A DNA stretch of 28,385 nucleotides. It comes from a virus. This document shows positions 1,874 to 13,614 of this stretch, piece after piece; the stretch's first letter is position 1, and every line of letters starts with the position of its first letter. The notes below the pieces were generated by a model. That model did no database searches, was not told the DNA's origin, and saw only the letters and a program-made list of their open reading frames with translations. The stretch covers positions 1 to 28,385 of the IMG/VR virus record IMGVR_UViG_3300036909_000074. One strand, written 5' to 3'. The position numbers and the translations under genes were made by a program.

Positions 1874-2189
1874 TCTGTTCTCCAATCTCAGGTTGCAACC
1901 CAAACGCCGCTTCTGTCAATCGGCGCACATCCGCTGAAGACTTAGCCTTGATGGTTGAATTGTCTGCCTTTTCCGGCGGCGGTGTCAAAGGAATCTTGCG
2001 GAGGCGCTGAATTTCGGCCTCAAGCTGGGTGGTTCTGGTATTCCCGCGTTCTGCTAAATCCTGCCAATACTTAACCTTTGTTGAGATGTGCTCTCTTGCG
2101 GACTTGGCTTCTATTATAGACGCGCTCCAGCCAATCGCCAGAATCGCAACCACCACCAAAAGAACGAAGGTCACTGCCGCGCTGCCCAT
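1860..2189 (-). CDS. Single-pass membrane protein with coiled coil
   Basis: I choose the ATG at 2189 (109 residues), preceded by GAGGAAGGGG, over an ATG at 2225 with no clear binding site. Residues 4-24 (AAVTFVLLVVVAILAIGWSAS) form one hydrophobic segment. A long charged helix follows (AKSAREHISTKVKYWQDLAERGNTRTTQLEAEIQRLRK), which looks like a coiled coil, then a Pro-rich, Lys/Asp-containing tail. The start lies inside the 3' end of the large terminase gene. The layout resembles small phage inner-membrane proteins such as i-spanins or holin accessory proteins, but it sits outside the lysis cassette at 20-22 kb, so I leave the function open. Confidence 0.6.
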   Translation of the reverse strand: MGSAAVTFVLLVVVAILAIGWSASIIEAKSAREHISTKVKYWQDLAERGNTRTTQLEAEIQRLRKIPLTPPPEKADNSTIKAKSSADVRRLTEAAFGLQPEIGEQNDIE

Positions 2190-3718
2190 GCCGACCCCTT
2201 CCTCGGGTTGTTGTCCTGCTTCCATTTTGCCATAAGCACACTCTTTGCCGTCATGTCCGCTTTGGGACTCAAGCTCTGATAATACTCCTGTTGCCTCACT
2301 TGCAACGGTTTAGATGCCGGACGCCCAAAAATTGCATACAATCCATATCCAGAACCTTGAAGCGGAGAGTCTGAGCCGTCGCTCGAACCTTCAATCTGCT
2401 CCACCTTCACCGGGTCTGACTTCACCAGCGGAATGACCCGGCGCAACTGCTTGCACTTGTCGCTTACCATCCAGCCTGGATATTCCAACGGGTGCCCACT
2501 TGCATCCTCTCCGTACCTGATCCGCTTGGCAAGCAGCTCCCTCATCAGCGTATCGCGCCCCAGCTTGTCCCTGGTGCTCGGCAGCGGTATTGGGATGCCC
2601 TCGCGCCGGAGAACCGGTGTCATACGCTGATTCACGGACCGCATGTCCGCGCCCATCGTCGCTGTTGCCTTACTGTATTCCGCATCGAAAGAATGTGTGA
2701 AGTTGATGAATTGAGGAATCTCCATCTTGCCGTGCTCGTTCTCTTCGACCGCCCACTCTGCAATGTGCTCCGCCAGATCTTCAGGCTGCTCATGCTGCGT
2801 ATAAAGCTCATCGTATGTGTAGACTTCCCCGTTCGGACCCATACAATGCTTGTAATAGCTGGCTGGGTGCTCATAGCCCCAGTTGCCTGAAATCCAGCGG
2901 CGATACCAGTCCGGGAACCGCACACTGCCATCCGTGAAAACATGGATGTTCTCGTCCCAAACTCCTCTGAAGTATCCGCCGGCCGCTCCCCACAGGCCGA
3001 ACTTGAGCGCATCGCGCACGTCTGCAGGGTACGCCTCAAGATTCTTGAGGAATGTCGGATCGTTGGCGAAGATGGGGTTGTCGAGGTACGTTGCCGGAAA
3101 GTAGTCGTAATCAGATGGATCAAACGCCGCCTTTTGGCTCTCGTCCATCCCCATACAAGGAATCCCCTTGACGAACAAATCCTCTACCCACATCGCGCCA
3201 ATGCCGATAGGATTTCCTGCTCCATACTTGCGAGGCTTATCGCTTACCGGACAACGATTCCATGCAGCAACACTTGACCATTGTTTGAACGTGAACTCAC
3301 AAAGTTCATCGTAACCCATGTGAAACCACTGGCCTTGCCAGCCCCACACGTCGTGCTCGTACTGCATCGACCCGAACTTTGTAGTGGCGCCGTTGAGCCA
3401 AGTGACCTGATTTTTTCCCTCGTTGTACTGCCGGTAAAGCTCTTTGGGGAAAGACTCGCGGAACCTGGTAATGACCGTTGACTCAAGCATGGGGAATGTG
3501 CGCCGGAACAGAATCGTGTGGACTTTGGGACCATCCTCATTGCTGAATTCATTGCAGGCCTGGAACTGCTCCATCAGCATCCCCATCGTCTTCCCGGGTC
3601 CAGCCGCGCCGCCCATGAACCCGTATGGTGCTGCCGAAGCATGGAACCGGCACTGGAAAGGGTAGGGATCGTATATCTTGCGCGTGTCGATGACGAAGCG
3701 GTCAGCGCCGGTCTGCAT
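2171..3718 (-). CDS. terL: Phage terminase large subunit (packaging ATPase/nuclease)
   Basis: This is the motor that cuts concatemeric DNA and drives it into the prohead. I start it at the ATG at 3718 (515 residues), two bases after the upstream stop; a longer frame to 3781 would run into that gene. The ATPase half shows Walker A GGAAGPGKT at residues 36-44 and Walker B FHMGYDE at 132-138. The C-terminal RNase H-like nuclease half begins near residue 275 (WISGNWGYEHP), followed by VYTYDELY and a terminal SDGSDSPLQGSGYGLYA. Most relatives carry Asp in the first nuclease motif (G-D-W-G); here codon 279 is AAC, Asn. Length fits the terminase_6 type. The identity is firm; whether nuclease activity is intact is not. 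Confidence 0.95.
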   Translation of the reverse strand: MQTGADRFVIDTRKIYDPYPFQCRFHASAAPYGFMGGAAGPGKTMGMLMEQFQACNEFSNEDGPKVHTILFRRTFPMLESTVITRFRESFPKELYRQYNEGKNQVTWLNGATTKFGSMQYEHDVWGWQGQWFHMGYDELCEFTFKQWSSVAAWNRCPVSDKPRKYGAGNPIGIGAMWVEDLFVKGIPCMGMDESQKAAFDPSDYDYFPATYLDNPIFANDPTFLKNLEAYPADVRDALKFGLWGAAGGYFRGVWDENIHVFTDGSVRFPDWYRRWISGNWGYEHPASYYKHCMGPNGEVYTYDELYTQHEQPEDLAEHIAEWAVEENEHGKMEIPQFINFTHSFDAEYSKATATMGADMRSVNQRMTPVLRREGIPIPLPSTRDKLGRDTLMRELLAKRIRYGEDASGHPLEYPGWMVSDKCKQLRRVIPLVKSDPVKVEQIEGSSDGSDSPLQGSGYGLYAIFGRPASKPLQVRQQEYYQSLSPKADMTAKSVLMAKWKQDNNPRKGSAWAARQ

Positions 3719-3720
3719 CG

Positions 3721-4083
3721 TTATCTCGTGACAATCAGACTGCCAACCGTGGGAGCCGTGGCGAATACAAACCGTATCCACCTTGCATTAAATGGGAAAC
3801 TGACCGAAGTACCACTCGGAATCGTGACCGCCACATCCTGATAGAGTCCCGGGCTATAGGGCTCGTATTGGCTTGCTGTGTCTGTTGCCGCTGATTGGAC
3901 AGTTGCGAGTTGATCAGTGGTATTTGTGACCGTCAGCTGGTCTGAGCCGGACGAGTCCGGGCCAATAGCAAGCTGTTTAGTCGTCAGAATACCGCTATCA
4001 GCGGCGGCATTGTCCACCACTGAAATAGATGTCCAAGGATAAAGAGCGACTCGTGGACCGGCGACGGTGTTGTAGGCTGGCAT
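3721..4083 (-). CDS. Beta-rich structural-type phage protein
   Basis: This 120-residue protein starts at the ATG at 4083 behind a near-ideal GAGAGGTGAT site. It has no transmembrane segment. The sequence is rich in Thr, Ser, Val and Ala with alternating strands (AVTIPSGTSVSFPFNARWIRFVFATAPTVGSLIVTR), as in small beta-sandwich decoration or head-tail proteins. It lies between the tRNA/zinc-ribbon frame and the large terminase, and its stop is two bases from the terminase start, so the terminase may be translated by coupling to it. A structural-type gene between the two terminase genes is unusual. No named family is recognised. Confidence 0.65.
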   Translation of the reverse strand: MPAYNTVAGPRVALYPWTSISVVDNAAADSGILTTKQLAIGPDSSGSDQLTVTNTTDQLATVQSAATDTASQYEPYSPGLYQDVAVTIPSGTSVSFPFNARWIRFVFATAPTVGSLIVTR

Positions 4084-4093
4084 AGATCACCTC

Positions 4094-4372
4094 TCAGTAC
4101 ATCTTACGACAAGCTGTGCACCAGTAGCCGTCGGCACGCTGAAATCCTGTATGATCAGGTTGGGTGCATCTGGTGGGCCTAGCAGGACTCGAACCTGTAA
4201 CCTCGCGCTTAGAATGCGCTTGCTCTGTCCTTTGAGCTACAGACCCACTATCCCACTTACGAGAGCGACACTCGCGGCTGCGGCAGTGAGTTGGCTTTAG
4301 GCGGTCCGCAAACTTGAGCCATTGATACCCGCACACATCACACTGCCAAACCTTTGCCACGCTATCGCCCAT
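4094..4372 (-). CDS. Zinc-ribbon reading frame that runs through the tRNA-Arg gene (possibly decayed)
   Basis: The frame is open from ATG 4372 (or GTG 4405) to 4094. Its first ~40 residues hold a zinc ribbon (WQCDVCGYQW...HCRSRECRSRKWD) clearly related to the small protein at 9868-10020 (KCKRCGYDW...QCPHCKSPKWD). Where the paralogue ends a few residues after KWD, this frame continues into residues that are simply the tRNA read as protein (VAQRTEQAHSKREVTGSSPARPT). It then ends with another zinc-like motif (CTQPDH...WCTACRKMY). Neither start has a convincing ribosome binding site. Either a zinc-ribbon gene was joined to a tRNA and a second finger fragment, or the frame is chance continuation of a truncated gene. 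Expression of the whole frame is doubtful. Confidence 0.35.
   Translation of the reverse strand: MGDSVAKVWQCDVCGYQWLKFADRLKPTHCRSRECRSRKWDSGSVAQRTEQAHSKREVTGSSPARPTRCTQPDHTGFQRADGYWCTACRKMY
4171..4246 (-). tRNA. tRNA-Arg (anticodon TCT)
   Basis: The reverse complement of this 76-base stretch folds as a cloverleaf. The acceptor stem pairs GGGTCTG with TAGGCCC, with two G-T pairs. The D arm is GCTC..GAGC. The anticodon loop ATTCTAA carries TCT, with the stem AGCGC/GCGCG mismatched at its outer pair. The T arm pairs CAGG with CCTG around TTCGAGT, with an A-C mismatch at its outer pair. CCA is encoded. It would read AGA and AGG codons, which are rare in many high-GC hosts, a common reason for phages to carry such a tRNA. 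It lies between the small terminase gene and a structural-type gene, on the same strand. Confidence 0.88.
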
Positions 4373-4407
4373 GTGTACATTGTACACGCTCTGTGTACGT
4401 TGCACAC
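4373..4407. promoter_or_regulatory. Two tandem 15-bp palindromes, operator-like
   Basis: GTGTACATTGTACAC (4373-4387) is a perfect palindrome around a central base, and GTGTACGTTGCACAC (4393-4407) is a close imperfect copy. Their centres are 20 bp apart, about two helical turns, as expected for a pair of dimeric repressor sites on one DNA face. They fill the gap between the small terminase stop (4409) and the zinc-ribbon frame. The TTGCAC half also occurs in the palindromes at 5700, 10862 and 17369. A packaging (cos/pac) recognition role is an alternative given the neighbouring terminase genes. Confidence 0.5.
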
Positions 4408-4408
4408 A

Positions 4409-4816
4409 CTATTTAGGCGGCCTGGGGATGCTCGTGATTATCTGCACGGGCCCGCCACCATCGCCAGTGATGGCCGTCTTGTCGCCATAAACCTTAGGAT
4501 TGCGCTTGGCAACGATCCATTTCATTGTATCTACGCGAGTGCGCTGCCAATTCGCCCATCCAGGATCAATCCCATACTTTCCGCGCTCTGGTTCTGCGTT
4601 GATTGCGTCCGTAAGTCCTTCAAAATCAGTATCTGCCCTTATTTGTAACGCGCGCGCGTAGCGTTTACCAAACTCTTCACTATCGTCTTTATGGTTCAAT
4701 ATAGAAGCAGCACAAAACCCATTCTTTTCAGCAACTTGCCGCAATGAATCGCCAGATTCTATGCCGTCAATGACAGCATTTTCCAATTCCGGCGTCCATT
4801 GAATCGCTGCTGGCAT
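4409..4816 (-). CDS. terS: Phage terminase small subunit
   Basis: This is the DNA-recognition partner of the large terminase, which selects the packaging start site. I use the ATG at 4816 (135 residues), which has AGGAG eight bases upstream; the open frame extends 31 codons further without a better signal. The N-terminus (WTPELENAVIDGIESGDSLRQVAEKNGFCAASILNH) is a helix-turn-helix of the kind found in small terminases. A helical oligomerisation region follows (EEFGKRYARALQIRADTDFEGL), then the characteristic RVDTMKWIVAKRNPKVYGDK. The Gly/Pro-rich tail may contact the large subunit. It is the first gene of the minus-strand packaging row, facing the divergent control region. Confidence 0.9.
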   Translation of the reverse strand: MPAAIQWTPELENAVIDGIESGDSLRQVAEKNGFCAASILNHKDDSEEFGKRYARALQIRADTDFEGLTDAINAEPERGKYGIDPGWANWQRTRVDTMKWIVAKRNPKVYGDKTAITGDGGGPVQIITSIPRPPK

Positions 4817-5006
4817 ACCTATATCTCCTGCTGCCAGTATTCTAGCGCAATTCGTCTTTTTCCATTGATTTATGGCGAATATTAGGAGAAAGATTGTGCT
4901 GGCCATCACACCACACGCTATTATTCACTCTTTTCGTACGTTTTCCCTTGCATTCGCTCTTTTGATGCTGTACTCTTATCACAGATCAGAAGAGGGGGAA
5001 AACACA
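4817..5006. promoter_or_regulatory. Divergent intergenic control region between terS and the early operon
   Basis: This 190-bp AT-rich gap separates the leftward terminase genes from the long rightward operon. For the plus strand, TTGCAT at 4948-4953 with a 17-bp spacer to TACTCT (4971-4976) is a weak sigma70-like candidate, followed by the AGAGGGGGA binding site of the gene at 5007. For the minus strand, TAGAAT (complement of 4839-4844) is a fair -10 element 22 bp from the small terminase start; its -35 is poor. No strong operator palindrome is seen here. Promoter positions are guesses; the divergent arrangement is clear. Confidence 0.45.
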
Positions 5007-6353: not shown

Positions 6354-6700
6354 CCACACTCATAGAAGATCGGGACGCGGAGTGGGAGAAGGCGATTGCT
6401 GCCTATCTGTCTAACAATTATGGCTGGGATGACGTCAATGCACTATCCATTGCCAACAAGATTCGCGCCCGTCTCACGCCGCAGCCGACAGCGCAGGATC
6501 ACGTAACGATTGAGCCCTGGATGGGCGGCTGGCGCATTGTGCGCGATGGGGAAGGCTTGTACTGGCAGTGGGATAAGGACACAGCAGACTTGATGGCTGA
6601 CGGCCTGCGCTGGCGGTTAGCGAAGGAGGCAGCAAAAACGCCTGATGAGGCCAAAACGGTGATCGAGAAGGTGTACGCGGCAGAAACGAGGGAACTGTGA
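6350..6700 (+). CDS. Hypothetical phage protein
   Basis: A 116-residue protein overlapping the previous gene as ATGA. It starts with an acidic helix (LIEDRDAEWEKAIAAYLSNNYGWDDVNALSIANKIRARL), carries a compact beta hairpin (IEPWMGGWRIVRDGEGLYWQWDK) and ends in a charged helix. Aromatic residues are frequent in the middle. No transmembrane segment or known motif is seen. The next gene starts with GTGA at its stop, so it is one link in a chain of coupled small genes. No family is recognised. Confidence 0.55.
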   Translation: MTTLIEDRDAEWEKAIAAYLSNNYGWDDVNALSIANKIRARLTPQPTAQDHVTIEPWMGGWRIVRDGEGLYWQWDKDTADLMADGLRWRLAKEAAKTPDEAKTVIEKVYAAETREL

Positions 6701-7329
6701 GCATCATTCTGCGTAATGGAAAGATTCTCAGTAACGAAGAGTTATTTGCCATTCCGGTTGATGGGGATGGTTGGCGAGTATTACCTGATGGCGACAGGGC
6801 TAGAATCGGCAACGAGGCCAGCATCGGCAACGAGGCCAGTATCGGCGACTGGGCTAGAATCGGCAACGAGGCTAGCATCGGCGACTGGGCCAGTATCGGC
6901 AACGAGGCCAGTATCGGCGACTGGGCTAGAATCGGCAACTGGGCCAGTATCGGCGACTGGGCTAGAATCGGCAACTGGGCCAGCATCGGCAACAGGGCTA
7001 GAATCGGCAACTGGGCCAGCATCGGCAACTGGGCCAGAATCAGCAACTGGGCCAGCATCGGCAACTGGGCTAGAATCGAAAAATCCCCTCTTGCTATACA
7101 GGGAACACGCCATCTAGTCACGCAGCATTCAAAAGGCATGATCGCAGTAGGTTGTCAAGTGCTCTCACACAAAGACTGGCTGCGACGCTATGTACGTATT
7201 GGCAAGTGCAACGGCTATACACCTCAAGAAATTGAAGAGTATGGGCGCATTCTCCATTTCGTGATTGATAACGCCGTGCCTATAGGCGTAGTTGAAGCCA
7301 AGGACGAGGCAGAAATGAGGAAACCATGA
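6697..7329 (+). CDS. Left-handed beta-helix hexapeptide-repeat protein
   Basis: A 210-residue protein starting with GTG overlapping the previous stop as GTGA. After a 34-residue leader (ILRNGKILSNEELFAIPVDGDGW) come 15 near-perfect six-residue units, A-R/S-I-G-N/D-E/W, covering residues 35-124. The Ile-Gly at fixed positions is the hexapeptide pattern that folds into a left-handed triangular beta helix. The C-terminal ~80 residues (TRHLVTQHSKGMIAVGCQVLSHKDWLRRY...GYTPQEIEEYGRILHFVI) form a separate conserved phage domain. Acetyltransferases with this fold have a catalytic His and longer, varied repeats; here the units are too uniform for enzyme loops. A structural or binding scaffold is more likely. 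The role is unknown. Confidence 0.8.
   Translation: MSIILRNGKILSNEELFAIPVDGDGWRVLPDGDRARIGNEASIGNEASIGDWARIGNEASIGDWASIGNEASIGDWARIGNWASIGDWARIGNWASIGNRARIGNWASIGNWARISNWASIGNWARIEKSPLAIQGTRHLVTQHSKGMIAVGCQVLSHKDWLRRYVRIGKCNGYTPQEIEEYGRILHFVIDNAVPIGVVEAKDEAEMRKP
6799..7068 (+). repeat. 15 tandem 18-bp units encoding A-x-I-G-x-x
   Basis: The DNA unit is GC(C/T)-AG(A/C/T)-ATC-GGC-(A/G)AC-(GAG/TGG/AGG). Changes are almost confined to the codons of outward-facing residues (R/S, N/D, E/W/R); one unit also has AGC for GGC. There is little synonymous drift, which implies recent expansion or homogenisation by unequal recombination. Confidence 0.9.
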
Positions 7330-8236: not shown

Positions 8237-8929
8237 ATGGAAATTAAGAACATTTACGACGCAGCAATCTTTGTCTCATCCGCACTCACCATAAAAGACG
8301 CGTTGATAGAGGCCATCAACGCTAAAACCGACCTGCGCTGTGCCTACCTGCGCGGTGCCGACCTGAGCGGTGCCTACCTGCGCGGTGCCGACCTGCGCAG
8401 TGCCTACCTGAGCGGTGCCTACCTGAGCGGTGCCGACCTGAGCGGTGCCAACCTGCGCGGTGCCTACCTGCGCGGTGCCTACCTGCGCGATTCCGACCTG
8501 AGCGGTGCCAACCTGAGCGGTGCCTACCTGCGCGATTCCGACCTGAGCGGTGCCTACCTGCGCGGTGCCTACCTGAGCGGTGCCGACCTGCGCGGTGCCT
8601 ACCTGCGCGGTGCCGACCTGCGCTGTGCCTACCTGCGCGGTGCCTACCTGAGCGGTGCCGACCTGAGCGGTAAGAAAATCCATTCGCTACGCTCATTCTC
8701 TTCTTGTATTTATCCCTACGAAGTATGGGCTGTGCTTTATGAAGACGGGTCGCGCTCGGTACGAATGGGATGCTTATTCAAATCGCTGAAAGAGTGGGAG
8801 AATTATCCCATCCTCAAGAGCAACGTCGGAGAATTTCCCGATGATGGATCTGACGCCAGCCTCGACCGTGCTGCCATGTTTGAATTGGCAAAAGCAGCAG
8901 CTCTTCGGATGACCGTTCCCGAAAAATGA
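8237..8929 (+). CDS. Pentapeptide-repeat protein
   Basis: A 230-residue protein with ATG at 8237 and GAGGAAAGG upstream. The N-terminal 30 residues form a helix (IYDAAIFVSSALTIKDALIEAI). Residues 31-145 are 23 uninterrupted pentapeptides A-D/Y/N-L-R/S-G, which fold into a right-handed quadrilateral beta helix. The C-terminal ~85 residues (KKIHSLRSFSSCIYPYEVWAVLYEDGSRSVRMGCLFKSLKEW...) are a distinct domain. Some pentapeptide proteins mimic DNA (Qnr, MfpA) and shield gyrase, but those have bulges and negative surfaces. This one alternates Arg/Ser and Asp/Tyr very regularly, so the target is unknown. The next reading frame overlaps as ATGA. Confidence 0.88.
   Translation: MEIKNIYDAAIFVSSALTIKDALIEAINAKTDLRCAYLRGADLSGAYLRGADLRSAYLSGAYLSGADLSGANLRGAYLRGAYLRDSDLSGANLSGAYLRDSDLSGAYLRGAYLSGADLRGAYLRGADLRCAYLRGAYLSGADLSGKKIHSLRSFSSCIYPYEVWAVLYEDGSRSVRMGCLFKSLKEWENYPILKSNVGEFPDDGSDASLDRAAMFELAKAAALRMTVPEK
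8327..8671 (+). repeat. 23 tandem 15-bp units encoding A-(D/Y/N)-L-(R/S)-G
   Basis: The unit is GCC-(T/G/A)AC-CTG-(C/A)GC-GGT. Nearly all variation is at the first base of codon 2 (Tyr, Asp or Asn) and codon 4 (Arg or Ser), with a few units ending TGT, AGT or GAT. The DNA is otherwise invariant, pointing to recent amplification. All reading frames of the block stay open, which creates long spurious frames on the other strand. Confidence 0.92.
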
Positions 8930-9867: not shown

Positions 9868-10020
9868 ATGAGAAGTAAGACGCTTACGGTATCAAGATTG
9901 AAGTGCAAGCGCTGCGGGTACGACTGGCAGACCAGGACACCGGCAAAGCCTCGGCAATGCCCTCATTGCAAGTCACCCAAATGGGACACTGAACGGAAGA
10001 CATCCAGAGAGGAGAAGTGA
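9868..10020 (+). CDS. Small zinc-ribbon protein
   Basis: A 50-residue protein with ATG at 9868 and GGAGGAGAG upstream. It contains two CxxC knuckles, LKCKRCGYDW and RQCPHCKSPKWD, giving a four-Cys zinc ribbon, followed by a short basic/acidic tail (TERKTSREEK). The N-terminus is basic (MRSKTLTVSRLK). It is related to the N-terminal part of the frame at 4094-4372. Such stand-alone ribbons are common in phages and probably bind nucleic acid or RNA polymerase; the partner is unknown. The next start lies two bases after its stop, so translation is likely coupled. Confidence 0.75.
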   Translation: MRSKTLTVSRLKCKRCGYDWQTRTPAKPRQCPHCKSPKWDTERKTSREEK

Positions 10021-12895: not shown

Positions 12896-13192
12896 ATGCC
12901 AGTCTCGAAGAAGAAGTACGTAATCGTTCGTACACATAGCGCCGGAGTCTTTGCCGGTACGCTCGTTTCCCGTGATGGGAAGGAAGTACAACTCTCTGAT
13001 GCGCGTCGTCTGTGGTATTGGTCCGGAGCCGCATCGCTATCGCAGCTTGCTGTGGATGGAACATCGAAACCAGTGGAATGCAAGTTTCCTGTAGCCGTTC
13101 CATCGGTCACGCTCACCGAAGCCATTGAAATTCTTGATGTAACTCCGAAAGCGGAGACCTCAATCAAGGATGTTCCGGTATGGCGAAACTAG
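12896..13192 (+). CDS. DUF6948-type conserved phage protein
   Basis: A 98-residue protein with ATG at 12896 behind AAGAAGGGAA. The sequence KKYVIVRTHSAGVFAGTLVSRDGKEVQLSDARRLWYWSGAASLSQLAVDGTSKP...CKFPVAVPSVTLTEAIEILDVTP...SIKDVPVW follows the DUF6948 pattern as I remember it. Hallmarks are 'VR..SAGVFAG', 'ARR.WYWSGAASL' and the closing 'VPVW'. It is widespread in phages and has no known function. Its last four codons overlap the start of the Gly-Tyr repeat gene in another frame. The tight overlap suggests the two are used together. Confidence 0.78.
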   Translation: MPVSKKKYVIVRTHSAGVFAGTLVSRDGKEVQLSDARRLWYWSGAASLSQLAVDGTSKPVECKFPVAVPSVTLTEAIEILDVTPKAETSIKDVPVWRN

Positions 13193-13614
13193 GCTACGGC
13201 TCCGGCGACGGCTACGGCTCCGGCTACGGCTACGGCTACGGCTACGGCGACGGCTACGGCTCCGGCTACGGCTACGGCTACGGCTCCGGCTACGGCGACG
13301 GCTACGGCTCCGGCTACGGCGACGGCTACGGCGACGGCTACGGCTCCGGCTCCGGCGACGGCTACGGCTCCGGCTACGGCGACGGCTACGGCTCCGGCTA
13401 CGGCGACGGCGACGGCGACGGCTACGGCTCCGGCTCCGGCGACGGCGACGGCTACGGCTCCGGCTACGGCGACGGCGACGGCGACGGCTCCGGCTACGGC
13501 GACGGCGACGGCTACGGCTCCGGCTACGGCTACGGCTACGGCTACGGCTCCGGCTACGGCTACGGCTCCGGCTACGGCTACGGCTACGGCTACGGCTCCG
13601 GCTACGGCGAATAA
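13180..13614 (+). CDS. Gly-Tyr/Gly-Ser/Gly-Asp repeat protein
   Basis: A 144-residue protein starting at the ATG at 13180, with AAGGA ten bases before it. It is MAKL, then 139 residues in which every other residue is Gly and the alternate one is Tyr, Ser or Asp, then Glu and stop. No fold is expected. Composition resembles silk-like, adhesive or condensate-forming disordered proteins, with Tyr as 'stickers'. The repeat keeps all frames open; I choose this frame because of its start, its binding site and the invariant GGC. An Arg/Leu frame (13170-13712) is the main rival. Similar GYG/GDG/GSG proteins exist in other phages, without a known role. Confidence 0.7.
   Translation: MAKLGYGSGDGYGSGYGYGYGYGDGYGSGYGYGYGSGYGDGYGSGYGDGYGDGYGSGSGDGYGSGYGDGYGSGYGDGDGDGYGSGSGDGDGYGSGYGDGDGDGSGYGDGDGYGSGYGYGYGYGSGYGYGSGYGYGYGYGSGYGE
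13192..13608 (+). repeat. About 70 tandem hexamers GGC-(TAC/TCC/GAC)
   Basis: 417 bases consist only of GGC alternating with TAC, TCC or GAC. The combination GCC (Ala), which would complete the two-position T/G and A/C set, never occurs. There is no synonymous drift and no interruption, so the block is either very young or under strong constraint. Confidence 0.95.

Follow-up and report, generated by a model that had tools for sequence, protein, structure and literature searches.

A two-module Cys/His phage gene whose putative linker coincides with a tRNA gene

A reading frame open through a tRNA

The IMG/VR viral record IMGVR_UViG_3300036909_000074, here called the window and analyzed over its full length of 28,385 bases, contains a tRNA-Arg(TCT) at 4171-4246 on the minus strand, near the terminase genes. 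The tRNA was called by ARAGORN and matched Rfam RF00005 at 4174-4246 on the same strand with 52.3 bits. A preliminary description of this DNA had placed the tRNA inside a same-strand reading frame flanked by two zinc motifs, and both parts of that description were confirmed: the minus frame 4094..4405 is uninterrupted across all 76 bases of the tRNA, with a zinc ribbon before it (4372-4253) and a Cys/His motif after it (4168-4094). The ATG directly before the ribbon lies at 4372-4370, the stop is at 4094 and the first base of the tRNA is also the first of a codon. Conceptual translation gives the ribbon MGDSVAKVWQCDVCGYQWLKFADRLKPTHCRSRECRSRKW, the linker DSGSVAQRTEQAHSKREVTGSSPARPTR and the tail CTQPDHTGFQRADGYWCTACRKMY, followed by the stop. 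The gene and its parts are as follows (pN/pS, ratio of nonsynonymous to synonymous polymorphism).

4094..4372, minus strand: chimeric gene, 92 codons plus stop, open through the tRNA (open reading frame analysis)
4253..4372, minus strand: N-terminal zinc-ribbon-like module, C-x2-C ... C-x4-C, with a CRSRKW end (motif, pN/pS)
4169..4252, minus strand: 28-codon linker that holds the entire tRNA (sequence)
4171..4246, minus strand: tRNA-Arg(TCT), 76 nucleotides, with an encoded CCA and 19 stem pairs (ARAGORN, Rfam)
4094..4168, minus strand: C-terminal module A, C-x4-H-x10-C-x2-C, stop included (motif, pN/pS)

In the window tRNA, the anticodon stem and the T stem each contain a single unpaired position. 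None of five family proteins scored above any curated cut-off in Pfam, and none of four reached an E value below 0.001 in PHROGs (best, 0.053). The ribbon had also been described as a paralog of the small protein encoded at 9868-10020; this likeness is real but weak, with 13 of 32 residues shared and an E value of 4e-5 in a two-sequence comparison.

Relatives with and without the tRNA

A search with the terminase large subunit yielded 35 loci, of which 26 were aligned across the site. Sixteen of these 26 share the window's order of ribbon, tRNA or tRNA-like stretch, and tail A; together with the window these are 17 loci, and the frame from ribbon to tail is open in every one. The tRNA kinds in these terminase-related loci comprise Arg(TCT), Trp(CCA), Met(CAT), a 79-nucleotide kind to which ARAGORN assigned a four-base anticodon and a kind with a replaced middle, which we read as Leu-like. 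Among the remaining ten, a ribbon-helix-helix domain is fused to tail A in L016, L020 and L024, no gene occupies the site in L013 and L014, and other sequence is found there in L012, L015, L026, L027 and L034.

Scanning viral contigs with patterns and profiles extended the family to other phages, including at least one further lineage whose terminase large subunit is different (PHROG 3717 in L048). There, the ribbon is of the window's type, tRNA-Met or tRNA-Thr comes after it, and the tail is HAPNCSCGMCRPSK or HHPRCGCSICK. In total, 27 contigs (window included) have a tRNA or a decayed tRNA after the ribbon, always at one and the same codon. At least six kinds are represented: Arg, Trp, Met, Thr, the 79-nucleotide kind with an odd anticodon loop and the Leu-like kind lacking a normal anticodon arm. 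The frame runs open into a second Cys/His motif in 26 of these 27 contigs, and no scan had demanded an open frame across the tRNA. An assembly artefact was rejected, as the 27 contigs are separate. A prophage attachment site was likewise rejected, the tRNA being full, with both acceptor strands, and lying between terminase genes.

A further 18 contigs encode a ribbon and a Cys/His tail in one frame with plain linkers of ~7 to ~60 codons (by eye), and ARAGORN called a tRNA in none of the 18. The numbers 27 and 18 are not frequencies, two of the pattern scans having demanded the first bases of the tRNA-like sequence. In L105–L110, L132 and L154, the modules are only ~7 to 11 residues apart: L105 and L110 read ..CRSRRWNSGKAPVPATPGHHPRCGCSICRPTK, with a few residues different in L106–L109, and L132 and L154 read ..CRSRKWNHDPKQTRPAHDPTCRCMMCKPPK. 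Their tails are of the kind found in the tRNA-bearing L080 and L046. The preliminary description had raised the contiguity of the two motifs in relatives without the tRNA, and these contigs bear it out to within those few residues. Both motifs are also present in L063–L069, L082, L083 and L133, with various Cys/His tails, but there longer plain linkers separate them.

The modules also recur in other combinations. The Trp, Met and 79-nucleotide tRNA kinds are each paired with two ribbon types, so the modules have been shuffled, and the same tails as in the tRNA-bearing genes are borne by ribbon-helix-helix proteins, of which that of L020 matches PF01402 (CopG-type ribbon-helix-helix) above the Pfam cut-off. 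In L016 (796-1180), the junction between the helix protein and tail A is CCCGCTCCACCAGATGC. This piece matches the 3′ terminus of the 79-nucleotide tRNA kind and is likely a recombination scar.

By eye, an H-x-P-x-C-x-C-x2-C tail was also seen on helix-type proteins in L130, L131, L135, L140–L142, L144 and L151, and the tail DNA of L135 is nearly identical to that of a tRNA-bearing gene. At the position corresponding to CCA, the tRNA-less L135 has ACCAGACC. Part of the CCA may therefore be target sequence, and we rejected the encoded CCA as proof of copying from a mature tRNA.

Database searches outside these contigs were less productive. Profile searches of genome contigs, with a ribbon–tail alignment and with a terminase alignment, returned no relative. 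A tblastn search of cultured phages gave no match for the tRNA-less proteins of L105 and L063 and no full relative of the window chimera; its two partial matches, mainly to the tRNA-coded part, fell on Salmonella phage tRNA genes and on an Enterobacter phage region with no annotation beneath. Among plasmids, Burkholderia arboris gave one partial match (40% identity over residues 26-90).

Selection and competing readings

Selection on the gene was assessed by pN/pS, given as uncorrected sums over non-independent pairs among 15 distinct variants; L078, L080 and L081 and the third ribbon type (two variants) were left out. Values were 0.10 for the second ribbon type (nine variants) and 0.11 for the window's type (four variants), and 0.13 and 0.17 for tails A (12 variants) and B (three variants), respectively, indicating that both ends of the protein are under purifying selection. 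Eleven of 17 variants, including the window, have no in-frame ATG, GTG or TTG between ribbon and tail, so that in these, by ordinary starts, the tail would be made only by reading through the tRNA. In the 26 substitutions found within tRNA kinds, amino acid changes numbered 13 against a random expectation of 18.1 (P 0.02).

The open frame itself carries less weight. Among control tRNAs, the same frame is open in 15 of 23 distinct Escherichia coli tRNAs and six of 23 T5 tRNAs, and is combined with a frame-keeping length in eight and two of these sets of 23, respectively. Because such frames are common, an open frame over a single tRNA is weak evidence, and the feature that exceeds chance is its conservation among relatives. 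A chance or spurious reading frame over a tRNA was nevertheless rejected as an explanation, given the pN/pS of 0.10-0.17 at the ends and the existence of tRNA-less homologues.

As tRNAs, the copies differ widely in quality. At 16 loci (the window and 15 others), Rfam scores ran from 69.6 down to 29.9 bits, with no tRNA match in L008; nine of the 16 fall below 48.5 bits, the lowest of the 36 E. coli tRNA gene matches used as a control (48.5-79.2 bits, many of them identical copies), and L011 and L033 in this count have one common tRNA sequence. ARAGORN made no tRNA call for L002/L017 or L003/L004 (Rfam, 29.9 bits in L017 and 35.3 in L003), decayed copies that retain the open reading frame; it assigned a three-base anticodon to the Arg, Trp, Met and Thr kinds and a four-base anticodon to L008 and L023. 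The 79-nucleotide tRNA-like linker of L008 (L008:1020-1098) matches the Rfam tmRNA model at 26.4 bits, below the cut-off.

The copies could be working phage tRNAs, serving in decoding or in replacing host tRNAs cut in defence, with the frame open only through the tendency of tRNAs seen in the controls. The highest scores (L078, 69.6; L048, 69.1; L052, 65.6 bits) are like those of real tRNAs, all 15 distinct copies are in sense orientation and end in CCA, and the different kinds bring different, mostly self-paired acceptor stems to the same junction. We nonetheless consider this reading unlikely: besides the nine low-scoring loci, the anticodon arm or loop is abnormal in two kinds, the T-loop of L078 reads TTAGATT, and the tail is conserved as protein and, in the 11 variants above, has no start codon of its own.

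Alternatively, the transcript might have two fates, giving the fused protein when left uncut and, when cut by RNase P, a tRNA and a ribbon message that has no stop, which would tune downstream genes. Such a role would fit the uniform sense orientation and the acceptor and T stems, which are largely retained also in copies with an odd or missing anticodon arm. It would also fit the L048 lineage, where the gene's stop and the beginning of the terminase large subunit gene overlap (likewise, by eye, in L046, L052, L080, L081 and L105). In the window, however, another gene intervenes before the large terminase gene; moreover, acceptor mismatches occur in L029, L010 and L052 and T-stem mismatches in several copies including the window's, and L105–L110 have the same gene without a tRNA. 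Two fates seem doubtful to us, and we hold as similarly improbable a wider form of this reading. In it, the uncut message would give a two-module zinc regulator, cleavage would release a tRNA (or a processing signal shaped like one) and a message lacking a stop, and phages would exchange whole tRNAs with sense, CCA and frame kept, so that a single cassette would be selected as both RNA and protein.

Finally, the arrangement could be a decaying by-product, with tRNAs inserted by chance recombination into a dying gene and the open frame a residue. Some of the tRNAs are indeed degraded, and in one of the 27 contigs, L078, a stop lies within the tRNA T-loop and no tail follows. Set against the low pN/pS at both ends over diverged variants and the 26 open frames, this explanation is very improbable. 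The preliminary description had wavered between a readable chimera and a pseudogene around a captured tRNA; the same two observations favor the chimera. No relative was found in which the ribbon ends at a stop ahead of the tRNA and the downstream motif is missing, the nearest case being L078 with its stop inside the tRNA.

We therefore favor, with a probability of roughly 80%, a two-module Cys/His phage protein with a flexible, exchangeable linker derived from tRNA. Comparison of the loci establishes the modular architecture, the open frame, the exchange of tRNAs, the tRNA-less homologues and the selection on both ends, and a readable chimera is well supported at this level; that it is translated, we infer. 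The linker would be encoded by the tRNA gene sequence in the sense direction and in frame, and the ribosome would read it as ~26 codons of unstructured peptide. Two properties would make a canonical tRNA usable for this: one frame through it is often open, and 76 nucleotides plus 2 preserve the reading frame. The linker position would be tolerant, so that tRNAs of differing identity have been put there and exchanged, and several copies have decayed as tRNAs while the frame persisted.

Several observations weigh against this tRNA-derived linker. A pure linker would not require the all-sense orientation, and the mostly self-paired acceptor stems of the different kinds count against it, as do the interrupted frame of L078 and the frequency of open frames in the control tRNAs. 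Six of the 17 variants have one or more possible in-frame starts (ATG, GTG or TTG) within the linker. The tRNA part has a pN/pS of 0.36-0.46 within kinds, from few changes, which points to weaker selection and cannot separate coding from tRNA structure. The same 26 substitutions removed seven stem pairs against 10.9 expected at random (P 0.08), so that coding and tRNA-structure constraints are both hinted at and neither is proved. Zinc binding by the two Cys/His modules is a prediction from their motifs. On the supporting side, an AlphaFold model of the L005 protein has a predicted local distance difference test score (pLDDT) under 50 at residues 43-63, within the tRNA-coded stretch, and of 75-80 at the tail, although the model is poor overall (pLDDT, 62; predicted template modelling score, 0.30).

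If the favored reading is true, tRNA genes have been turned into protein sequence repeatedly at one codon, and a canonical tRNA already has the length and frame that a protein linker needs. The relatives would form a natural allele set (different tRNA kinds, decayed tRNAs and none) for the study of joint selection on tRNA and protein and of the precise movement of whole tRNAs. Gene callers that mask tRNAs would split such genes in two.

Possible regulation, neighborhood and known systems

The tandem palindromes that had been placed at the 5′ end of the gene are there, at 4373-4387 and 4393-4407, just upstream of the ATG.

4373..4387, minus strand: GTGTACAATGTACAC, palindrome directly adjoining the start codon and candidate operator; overlaps a −10-like TACAAT
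4393..4407, minus strand: GTGTGCAACGTACAC, second palindrome of the tandem pair, upstream

A palindrome pattern, written post hoc, matched three times over both strands of the window, each time at this site, against 0.14 in shuffles. A 15-nucleotide palindrome with at least five of seven arm pairs ends exactly at the ATG in 25 of 28 family members; for comparison, such a palindrome ends within 5 nucleotides of 69 of the window's 936 ATGs (its own site included). The sequence varies while the symmetry is kept (for example, GTGTACAATGTACAC, GTGTATAATATACAC and GAGTGCATTGTACTC), and the arms change together between ribbon types. The start-abutting palindrome may be an operator or an RNA hairpin. 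TACAAT or TATAAT, which may act as a −10 promoter box, occurs at the palindrome in many members and is absent from L132 and others. Because relatives have a ribbon-helix-helix domain in place of the ribbon and the palindrome abuts the start, the arrangement suggests autoregulation of the chimeric gene and perhaps regulation of the nearby terminase genes as well.

The neighboring genes in the window are as follows.

4409..4909, minus strand: terminase small subunit, upstream neighbor (Pfam Sf6_terminase, 2.1e-19; PHROG 1482)
3721..4083, minus strand: downstream neighbor of 120 amino acids, without a family match in Pfam or PHROGs
2171..3781, minus strand: terminase large subunit (PHROG 2 and 979; 35 related loci)

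In L029, ~370 codons (2102-3210) are inserted into the large terminase gene between the GPGK and T of Walker A, ending MIPTHN ahead of the T; in this locus, the only one in which it was read, the insert contains what we take to be intein-like and LAGLIDADG-like sequence. The large terminase match is similarly split in L026, L027 and L030–L035, and the window's terminase has no insert. Elsewhere in the window, repeat-rich frames lie at 6697-7329 (IGNxAxIG), 8237-8929 (GADLSGAYLRG, pentapeptide-like) and 13180-13614 (DGYGSGYG).

A limited literature search by titles and abstract openings, without preprints or most subscription journals, found no described case; within the reach of that search, a tRNA serving as an in-frame protein linker is apparently undescribed. 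Several known systems share parts of the arrangement. GSSPAR-like peptides from frames that span tRNAs are common in databases, and the linker here resembles such spurious reading frames in using the often-open frame and in its GSSPAR-like end; unlike them, it is flanked by conserved modules on both sides and has known tRNA-less homologues. With phage-encoded tRNA genes it shares, in many members, a cloverleaf with CCA. In T5, the one phage examined, tRNAs are mostly intergenic and a few overlap a gene end, whereas the present tRNA is enclosed by a conserved frame and varies in identity and integrity. The Com protein of phage Mu (PMC6483171) is likewise reported to be a small phage zinc protein and was studied with self-complementary RNA; no Com family appeared among the Pfam matches here, and the present protein has two modules with a long linker. 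The CopG-type ribbon-helix-helix proteins of L016, L020 and L024 have the same C-terminal module and terminase neighborhood and, in L020, a 15-nucleotide palindrome at the start with five of seven arm pairs. They differ in that the first module is a helix domain and there is no tRNA, with a tRNA-like 3′ end present at the junction in L016.
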